This document shows positions 5,009 to 7,872 of a DNA stretch of 40,099 nt, piece by piece. The notes under the pieces were generated by a model. It made no database searches, was not told the DNA's origin, and was given only the letters and a program-made list of their open reading frames with translations. Numbering within the stretch: position 1 is the first letter of the stretch; the number at the start of each line of letters is the position of its first letter. Source of the stretch: Candidatus Daviesbacteria bacterium RIFCSPLOWO2_01_FULL_37_10. GTDB taxonomy: Bacteria; Patescibacteriota; Microgenomatia; Daviesbacterales; UBA10151. The stretch is taken from NCBI GenBank assembly GCA_001776865.1, contig MFDK01000010.1, positions 2,855 to 42,953 of the forward strand, read 5' to 3'. The translations under genes were made by a program, and so were the position numbers.

Positions 5009-6040
5009 ATGGAAATTTTTTCAGAAGCTAAGGCAAATTTTGGTTATTTTGTAGCAAGAAATATTCTTGAAAGATTAGCCCCTAAGGTTAATCTGAAATA
5101 TAAAGATAGCGTAACTTTAGAAACAGCAAAGGAGTTTGAGGTAAATAACTCTTCGTTTGATGAATTAGCAGACATATACTATTCAGTAGTTTTATTTAAT
5201 CATCGGAATGCAGAAGAGGCTATTGAATCGACTATCAATTTATCTCAGCAACTGATTAATTTAGGTGATTTTAGAAGTTCAAAATACTATCTTAGTAAGT
5301 TTGTTCCTCGGTATCTCTCGGGTATAGATTCTTATAGACAATATTATTATCTGGCTAGAAGGGAAGAAAAATTTGCATGGATTGCTGATTATGAAATAGG
5401 TTATAAAGATGAACTTAATCATTTATCTTCTGCAAAAAAGTTTTTAGAAAATATTCCTCACGATTTATGGCGAAATGAAGAGAGGAGCCTTGATTCTACA
5501 ATAATGCATTTTGCAGGAAGAGCATATTTTGGGTTGGATAACCAGGGATTTCATAGAGGAGGATATATACATAATGCGGTTGGTTACTTTAATTATGATT
5601 TGGAAAAATATAGGGATTTAAGGGAAAATGGAAATCCAAATCCAGCAGGTGAGGGTTTTAATCATGCGTGGTTAGCAAGATGTTATATGAATTTGGAGGA
5701 CTGGAATACCTCATTGAGGGAGTTAGATACAGCAGGAGTATTATTTGATGAGGTATCAGAAAGCAGTAAGAGCGGACTAAGAGCACATTTTAATTTTCTA
5801 AAAGGCTTATATGAACTAAGGAGTGCAAACGGCTCTGTTGGCGAATCAATACATTATTTTTCTGAAGCCGCTAGAATTTGGGAAGATTTAGCACGATACC
5901 CATTTGGTGCAGCCAGTGCTCATTTAGGATTGGCTAAGACTTATTGGAAATGGCATAAACCTATTGATGCAGTAAGACATTTAAAAGTTTCCGTTCAAAC
6001 TAACCCTTACGTTTTACTAAGGGGAGTTCCTGGAGGATAG
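5009..6040 (+). CDS. Uncharacterised helical-repeat (TPR-like) protein
   Basis: 343-aa ORF with helical Tyr/Leu/Ala repeats (FNHAWLARCYMNLEDWNTSLRELDTAG; SAHLGLAKTYWKWHKPIDAVRHLKVSVQ); TATAAT 7 nt before ATG. Confidence 0.55.
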   Translation: MEIFSEAKANFGYFVARNILERLAPKVNLKYKDSVTLETAKEFEVNNSSFDELADIYYSVVLFNHRNAEEAIESTINLSQQLINLGDFRSSKYYLSKFVPRYLSGIDSYRQYYYLARREEKFAWIADYEIGYKDELNHLSSAKKFLENIPHDLWRNEERSLDSTIMHFAGRAYFGLDNQGFHRGGYIHNAVGYFNYDLEKYRDLRENGNPNPAGEGFNHAWLARCYMNLEDWNTSLRELDTAGVLFDEVSESSKSGLRAHFNFLKGLYELRSANGSVGESIHYFSEAARIWEDLARYPFGAASAHLGLAKTYWKWHKPIDAVRHLKVSVQTNPYVLLRGVPGG

Positions 6041-6106
6041 AAAGATCTATTTTGAATGAGTATATTAATTTTTCCCTGGAGTTTTCTAAGTAAATATTTA
6101 TTGCTT

Positions 6107-6134
6107 TAAATATAACACTACGTAGTGCTATACT
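6107..6134. promoter_or_regulatory. Palindromic operator candidate upstream of TrpR-like gene (core CACTACGTAGTG 6116-6127)
   Basis: TATAaCACTACGTAGTGcTATA: 10 of 11 base pairs symmetric; overlaps TATACT (6129-6134), a -10 candidate. Confidence 0.7.
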
Positions 6135-6144
6135 TTGGAAAAAT

Positions 6145-6702
6145 ATGTCAAAAAAAATCTATTTTGAAAAAATAAAAAGATTAGAAAAACTTACTAAAGA
6201 TGAACAAGAGGATTTACTGTTTGATCTTCTTAGTGCATTTCAAATAATAAAGACAGTTGATGATGCGGCACTTTTTGTGCAAGATTTATTAACGCATGCT
6301 GAAGTTAAAAGACTTTCAAAAAGATTGAGAATCGCTAAGTTACTTTCTGAGGGGTATACTTATGAAGCGGTTGAGAAACAACTGCACACCAGTCATGCTA
6401 CTATAGCAAAAATTGCCAACTGGTTAGCTGATAAAGGTGAAGGATTTCGTTCAGTTTTAAGGAGACTCCCAAAAAGAGAGAACTCTCCAGCACTAACTAT
6501 ATTAAGTGATGAATGGGATCAAATAAAAAGGAGCTACTCCCGATATCTATGGCCGGAAATTCTTCTTGAAGAAATTATTAAAACAGCAAGTAAAAAGAAA
6601 AAAGAAAAATTAGGAATAGTGCTTAGTAACCTTAAAATTAAAAGTGATCTTCATAAAAAATTAGAGTCATTAATACATGAACATAAGTATACTACTACAT
6701 AG
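6145..6702 (+). CDS. TrpR/YerC/YecD-like DNA-binding regulator with C-terminal extension
   Basis: LLTHAEVKRLSKRLRIAKLLSEGYTYEAVEKQLHTSHATIAKIANWL matches the TrpR-like helix-turn-helix (YerC/YecD) pattern. Confidence 0.85.
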   Translation: MSKKIYFEKIKRLEKLTKDEQEDLLFDLLSAFQIIKTVDDAALFVQDLLTHAEVKRLSKRLRIAKLLSEGYTYEAVEKQLHTSHATIAKIANWLADKGEGFRSVLRRLPKRENSPALTILSDEWDQIKRSYSRYLWPEILLEEIIKTASKKKKEKLGIVLSNLKIKSDLHKKLESLIHEHKYTTT

Positions 6703-6712
6703 TAATATACTT
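6685..6712. promoter_or_regulatory. Second palindromic operator candidate, between TrpR-like gene and downstream GT4
   Basis: AAGTATACTACTACATAGTAATATACTT: 12 of 14 pairs symmetric; 22/28 identical to the upstream site; overlaps regulator stop codon. Confidence 0.7.
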
Positions 6713-6759: not shown

Positions 6760-7872
6760 ATGAATATTCTAATTTTTTCTTGGAGAGATATTAAACATCC
6801 CCTTGCGGGTGGCGCAGAGCAAGTTATGCATGAGCATGCAAAGGGTTGGATAGAGGTAGGACATAGTGTAACGCATTTTTCGGCACATTTCTCAGGAGCA
6901 AAGATATATGAAGAAATTGACGGAATTAAATTAGTAAGATTTAGCCATCAGTACTTAGGGGTACAGATAGCTGGATTCTTTTTTTATATAAAAAACAGGA
7001 ATAAATTCGATGTAGTTATCGATGAATTTCACGGGCTTCCTTTTTTCACACCGCTTTATGTTAGAAAAAAGATTCTTGCAGTAGTGCAGGAAACCGCAAG
7101 AGGTGTTTGGTTTTTTAATTCGTTGCCTACTCCTTTGAATTGGCTGGTTGGATTTATTGGCTATATTATTGAACCATTTGCCTTTTTATTTTACAGACAG
7201 GTTAATTTTATGACTGGTTCAAGATCCGCCAAAGAAGACATTGCTAAAATGGGAGTTATTTCTGGAAACATTACGGTTATCCCTCATGGCGTCATTACCC
7301 CTAAAAAAAACTCACAGCATAAAAATAACAAAAAAAATACTGTAATGTTTTTGGGGAAGTTATCTAAGGATAAAGGGATTGAAGATGCAATTAAATGTTT
7401 TTCTATTCTTAATAGCAGGGAAAATTTTCAATTTTGGATTATAGGTAAACCGGAGACTAAAAATTATGGGGATAAAATTAAGGAGATGGTTATTAATGCA
7501 AATTTGGATAAGAAATTAAAGTTCTGGGGATTTGTTTCTCAGCAAAAAAAATTTGATCTTCTTTCAATGGCACATATTTTAGTAAATCCATCTATCAGAG
7601 AGGGTTGGGGGCTTGTAAATATCGAAGCAAATTCCGTTGGAACTCCTGTAATCGCGTATAAATCAGCAGGGCTTATCGATTCGGTAAAAAATGGACTAAA
7701 TGGATTAATATGTAATCAGAATTCGCCGGAAGAATTAGCAAATAAAGTATTAAGTTTATTTAATAATGATAAACTTTATATGAAACTGAGTACCGGAGGA
7801 AAAAAATGGAGTAGGAAATTTTCATGGAAACGATCATGTAAGCTATCGTTAAAACTTTTGGAAAGTATTTGA
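6760..7872 (+). CDS. Glycosyltransferase family 4
   Basis: MNILIFSWRDIKHPLAGGAEQVMHEHAKGW; VMFLGKLSKDKGIEDAIKCF; PSIREGWGLVNIEANSVGTPVIAY. ATG at 6760 preferred over the TTG at 6751. Confidence 0.9.
   Translation: MNILIFSWRDIKHPLAGGAEQVMHEHAKGWIEVGHSVTHFSAHFSGAKIYEEIDGIKLVRFSHQYLGVQIAGFFFYIKNRNKFDVVIDEFHGLPFFTPLYVRKKILAVVQETARGVWFFNSLPTPLNWLVGFIGYIIEPFAFLFYRQVNFMTGSRSAKEDIAKMGVISGNITVIPHGVITPKKNSQHKNNKKNTVMFLGKLSKDKGIEDAIKCFSILNSRENFQFWIIGKPETKNYGDKIKEMVINANLDKKLKFWGFVSQQKKFDLLSMAHILVNPSIREGWGLVNIEANSVGTPVIAYKSAGLIDSVKNGLNGLICNQNSPEELANKVLSLFNNDKLYMKLSTGGKKWSRKFSWKRSCKLSLKLLESI

Follow-up and report, generated by a model that had tools for sequence, protein, structure and literature searches.

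Most long-form TrpR-like regulator genes of the Patescibacteria, those whose products carry a C-terminal extension, are flanked by two matching near-palindromes whose sequence is specific to each lineage. This phylum-wide bracketing by matching, lineage-specific near-palindromes is the new finding presented here; a literature search found no paper on such bracketing. The analysis starts from a 40,099-nucleotide stretch of DNA from Candidatus Daviesbacteria bacterium RIFCSPLOWO2_01_FULL_37_10 (the window), in which one near-palindrome stands at each end of a TrpR/YerC-family gene. The best explanation, to which a probability of roughly 60% is assigned, is that the protein is an autoregulator with cognate operators at both gene ends, probably bridged, and that in the lineage of the window a small regulon including glycan genes is under its control as well. 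The features of the locus are as follows.

5009..6040, + strand: upstream gene for a TPR-like protein of 343 aa (TPR_12 below its gathering cut-off), with a 67-bp gap to the first palindrome
6105..6134, + strand: promoter-like TTTAAA-18-TATACT with an extended -10 (TG), overlapping the upstream palindrome (consensus match only)
6108..6135, no strand: upstream near-palindrome AAATATAACACTACGTAGTGCTATACTT, a putative autoregulatory operator (from sequence)
6145..6702, + strand: gene for the TrpR/YerC-family regulator, 185 aa (PF01371, TIGR02531, structure relatives)
6226..6468, + strand: TrpR-type helix-turn-helix domain, residues 28-108 (domain and structure/fold searches)
6469..6699, + strand: C-terminal extension of about 77 aa, absent from TrpR and the short YerC forms, helical by low-confidence prediction
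6685..6712, no strand: downstream near-palindrome AAGTATACTACTACATAGTAATATACTT, overlapping the regulator stop codon (from sequence)
6763..7872, + strand: next gene, a GT4-family glycosyltransferase (start 6763 or 6751)

The regulator belongs to the TrpR superfamily, and the TrpR/YerC-like identity given to it in an earlier note on this DNA is borne out. The Trp_repressor profile PF01371 matches residues 28-108 (7.9e-16; 58.3 bits against a gathering cut-off of 27), and the YerC/YecD model TIGR02531 scores 50.9 against a curated cut-off of 42.2; the trp operon repressor equivalog TIGR01321 stays at 23.7 bits, below its cut-off of 67.25. The nearest solved structures, 3kor, 3g1c, and 3frw in the PDB, are HisR/YerC-like. 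An AF2 model built from 3 sequences has a mean pLDDT of 54.7 and is unreliable in the extension, and a fold search with this model recovered only the TrpR domain (best E 0.04). Domain profile searches likewise found the TrpR domain alone in the protein, with no nuclease or recombinase domain. The single regulator protein retrieved no close orthologues from the genome contig collection or from viral contigs.

Each window palindrome is 28 bp long, has the core ACTAC(A/G)TAGT, and pairs at 12 of 14 positions, a degree of pairing that only one further 28-mer of the window attains. The two copies match at 22 of 28 positions, and both depart from symmetry at the seventh pair counted from the centre, figures of the earlier note that a recount reproduced. 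Both palindromes that it described exist, the second exactly at 6685-6712 and the first shifted by one, at 6108-6135 rather than 6107-6134. It had also placed the first over a likely -10, and an extended -10, TG-n-TATACT (6129-6134; consensus match only), is found within that palindrome, ending 10 bp 5' of the start codon. The second palindrome does lie ahead of the glycosyltransferase start, but it begins inside the regulator gene instead of following it, and covers the last codons and the stop codon at 6700-6702.

A palindromic operator over the gene's own promoter is the arrangement of the TrpR and HisR autoregulators, and the predicted operator of the window gene is placed in the same way. 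Escherichia coli TrpR shares with the window regulator the PF01371 family, the half-site TACT/AGTA, and an upstream autoregulatory palindrome (detected at -56 at E. coli trpR); it differs in its length of about 108 aa without an extension, and trpR has no matching downstream palindrome. HisR (YerC of Bacillus subtilis), the histidine repressor, shares the YerC/YecD family and lineage-specific palindromic operators. In the parts of the HisR study drawn on here, the operators of the TrpR family are lineage-specific palindromes, about half of the hisR genes are preceded by a site, and autoregulatory sites are described upstream only (PMC9413887). The HisR motif given there is 20 bp long, cacTTTAnnnnnnTAAAgtg, and controls his genes (PMC9413887), whereas the window sites span 28 bp with the core ACTACRTAGT and none lies beside his genes.

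Sites of the window type recur in the host genome (970 kb in 40 contigs, 95% complete). The earlier note had proposed a genome-wide scan for such palindromes, and a core pattern search finds six of the form AAGTATAnnACTACATAGTnnTATACTT, including the bracketing pair; two of those beyond the pair are in polysaccharide loci. Because the 24-base core pattern has 6 forward and 5 reverse matches in this genome against 0 and 0 for a backwards control, a chance origin of the window-type sites is excluded. The arms are fixed across the six sites and the inner nn positions are free, as would be expected of a protein-binding site. No his genes adjoin any of the six, and the sites away from the regulator are placed as follows.

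L012: between ABC polysaccharide-exporter-like permease and ATPase genes (wzm/wzt-like)
L013: between GT4 and GT2 glycosyltransferase genes
L011: between a divergent amino-acid-kinase-family gene and a UPF0047 gene
L008: after purF, ahead of a convergent gene

The glycan link made in the earlier note is supported to the extent that glycan genes recur near these sites (the GT4/GT2 and wzm/wzt-like loci), and glycosyltransferase genes are also recurrent neighbours of sites in other genomes. Clade-specific sites number six in this genome (G000), six in G313, six in G082, and eleven in G134; G295 has only its own bracketing pair. Purine genes, named from their translations, adjoin sites in G000 (after purF) and in G313 (between purB and purE), and trpS is a recurrent place of sites in G327 and G365. 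In these last two genomes, which belong to two genera, a window-type palindrome lies between the pRiA4b ORF3-like and tryptophanyl-tRNA synthetase genes (L110, L111), and their own long regulator has a different palindrome. The murT genes of G162 and G313 contain operator-like palindromes at matching codons (L108 and L117; SSMLLHSNVL and SSIILHSTIL), and each palindrome has the form characteristic of the regulator of its genome.

Homologous loci belong to Woesebacteria and Daviesbacteria, both within the Patescibacteria. Each of the two closest homologues, a paralogue on contig C36 of the same genome and a gene of another Daviesbacteria genome (G043), lies between two matching palindromes whose sequence differs from that of the window pair and which have no further copies in either genome. 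The earlier note had made its reading depend on palindromes being conserved near orthologues: what is conserved there is the bracketing and not the palindrome sequence. In the paralogue (L017, G000:C36:51768-52118), an in-frame TGA replaces a conserved Phe while both palindromes are retained; the gene is probably a recent pseudogene.

Three sets of loci show how far the bracketing extends. A search of 374 genomes of the class gave 22 long homologues, and in 18 of these the score of the upstream/downstream pair exceeded all 2200 shuffles, 17 through palindromes. In the eighteenth (L066) the score is due to another repeat, and the palindromes are visible by eye; this direct repeat, ATTCTCCCGAAGATTC, lies outside both palindromes at about -100 and +73 (G221:C32) and is possibly an insertion trace. 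Of the four remaining class loci, L070 shows a half-site, L071 has its copy within the last codons, an insert interrupts one copy at L075, and L073 lacks a downstream copy. The 17-bp insert that splits the upstream palindrome of L075 (G063:C18), CCTGTCTGCGCAGGCAG, is itself part of a palindrome. In the family set, initially chosen as controls, 11 of 29 other TrpR-like loci are bracketed, namely the long ones. Bracketed loci in the phylum set number 41 of 48 where the extension reaches 40 aa, 8 of 15 where it measures 25-40 aa, and 1 of 25 where it is shorter. All these counts come mostly from metagenome assemblies with automatically set starts and extension lengths, and loci of the same clade are not independent in them. 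The threshold was passed by 77 loci, while 177 ordinary genes taken from the same loci as a control yielded no pass. Short TrpR-like forms almost never pass it, and E. coli trpR falls below it with a pair score of 19, although its known upstream operator is still detected. The association between extension and bracket has a Fisher value of 1e-14 in raw counts, but only 7 independent pairs are available (about 3 for, 0 against), and it is not significant when the tree is allowed for. One genome of 0.8 Mb, G424, contains eight TrpR-like paralogues (e.g., L161, L191, L193, L195, L201, L209, and L212), most with a private palindrome pair.

The two sites of a locus match each other closely and differ between loci. 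Identity between upstream and downstream copies is about 88-91% within one locus (87.5% in the bracketed class and family loci), compared with 46% across loci. Site similarity tracks protein similarity in the class and family loci (Mantel r 0.60; 0 of 2000 permutations), a correlation also expected under common descent alone; the added point is that two physically separate sites change together, and in the bracketed loci of these sets upstream similarity tracks downstream similarity with r 0.83. The family-wide half-site is about AATACT, which includes the TACT of the E. coli trp operator; the half-site of the window is AAGTATAnnACTA. The asymmetric centres are 95% identical between the two copies of a locus, compared with 90% for the arms, and are co-oriented in 48 of 50 informative loci. 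This shared orientation is unexplained by a symmetric dimer, which needs none, and could stem from an ancestral direct pair with stepwise change, or from gene conversion or recombination. Two units that are 82% identical in DNA (L170 in G565 and L174 in G556) differ by inversion of the centre of the downstream near-palindrome.

According to the preferred explanation, the regulator would be a TrpR/YerC-family repressor that has a C-terminal extension and recognises a long near-palindrome. One predicted operator covers the extended -10 promoter before the gene and the second lies at its 3' end. With both occupied, the protein most likely represses its own transcription, the two operators being held together by a higher-order assembly through the extension, so that a loop of about 0.5-0.7 kb would close around the regulator gene. 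Because bracketing is tied to the C-terminal extension, the extension is suggested to let the protein hold two operators. Four further sites of the window genome, including the two in polysaccharide loci, are probable targets of this regulator as well. DNA binding and repression, and any ligand, are predictions here. In phage lambda, OL and OR lie on either side of the cI region, about 2.4 kb apart, and are joined by repressor looping. The likeness is a repressor gene set between operators that can be joined by looping, tuning its own expression; CI differs in its unrelated protein, its spacing of about 2.4 kb, and its multi-site operators. Counting against the preferred explanation are the small number of independent transitions behind the extension-bracket link, the lack of helical phasing between the two sites, the unreliable model of the extension, the shared orientation of the asymmetric centres, the mixed genes of the regulon, and the two sites inside murT in other genomes.

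A downstream operator could also act without a loop, as a roadblock or insulator at which bound protein stops read-through out of or into the regulator gene. This is unlikely. It agrees with a site that stands at the stop codon whatever the next gene, with the position of the first palindrome at pgk-eno, where relatives carry a terminator-like hairpin, and with the lack of helical phasing between the two sites (Rayleigh p about 0.7); it leaves the association with the C-terminal extension unexplained, and co-directional promoters are not consistently absent.

Autoregulation from the first site with control of the following glycan operon from the second was the reading of the earlier note. The palindromes do behave as cognate operators of the regulator would. 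The first half of this reading is the likeliest role for the first site; its second half lacks support as a general rule. Across 72 bracketed loci the next gene is co-directional at 54 and convergent at 18, and the downstream palindrome is kept in both arrangements. As a rule, this site cannot be an operator of the next gene, because it is kept at the 18 convergent loci; its position instead follows the regulator stop codon, usually within about 35 bp. A plain regulon, in which the second site is simply the operator-promoter of the following gene, is therefore unlikely even with the 54 co-directional loci in its favour, together with the window site about 50 bp ahead of a co-directional glycosyltransferase and the sites elsewhere ahead of wzt-like, GT2, trpS, and purE genes. 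In the window, the site may serve both functions. Related units in other families adjoin GT4, bacterial sugar transferase, and Wzy_C genes, and others are found at pgk-eno, gyrB-gyrA, corA-cysS, and glucokinase (ROK) loci (most names read from translations); because of these latter loci the family as a whole, judged by gene context, is not a glycan regulator.

At the pgk-eno junction, G479 and G724 carry the unit and five other genomes lack it, among them G465, a congener of G724. At the empty junctions a terminator-like hairpin, with no palindrome, takes its place; a single leftover palindrome was sought in the five genomes and none was found. Such presence or absence as a block, even within one genus, would suit a mobile or selfish cassette, in which palindrome, gene, and palindrome would move together, with the palindromes serving as ends or recombination sites of what is transferred. 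The identical and co-oriented centres (48 of 50) and the patchy distribution, with up to 8 paralogues per genome, fit as well. Such a cassette is nevertheless quite unlikely: the regulator lacks nuclease and recombinase domains, the palindromes of each unit vary in step with its own regulator, and neither a target duplication nor a lone palindrome at empty pgk-eno junctions was seen. Because many orthologous units share flanking genes on both sides across genera, vertical inheritance is favoured for them over frequent jumping. Distinctly improbable, too, is the wider proposal of an element widespread in Patescibacteria, in which a TrpR-like gene and two direct oriented near-palindromes would be one heritable unit that can be gained or lost, the identity of its sites maintained by active recombination or gene conversion and its regulator part of a new selfish, cassette-like regulatory element. 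In REP/RAYT and pdif/Xer modules, too, a gene stands between short imperfect palindromes (20-30 bp) whose centre is asymmetric. Unlike the former, the window unit has no Y1 (HUH) transposase, only the TrpR domain, and a low copy number; unlike the latter, it has no recombinase, and the bracket arms vary by locus with the regulator and are not constant dif-like arms for XerC/XerD.

RNA or single-stranded DNA hairpins (terminators, or REP elements with an associated gene) in place of double-stranded operators would share the REP-like layout of a palindrome-flanked gene with dispersed copies, but this reading was rejected as highly improbable, since arm mismatches are balanced between G-T and A-C on either strand, some lineages such as G295 have only the two bracketing copies per genome, and no Y1 nuclease domain is present.

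The proposed autoregulator with putative operators at both ends of its gene bears on a phylum whose transcription control is little known and most of whose species are uncultured. The bracketed layout points to an unusual and widespread way for a regulator to control its own gene. The bracket yields dozens of predicted regulator-operator pairs straight from sequence, a natural set on how TrpR-type proteins choose their DNA, and the conserved two-operator design of autoregulation that it suggests is testable in E. coli reporters. It also offers a way into how surface glycans are controlled, which is possibly relevant to bacteria with a presumed life on host cells.
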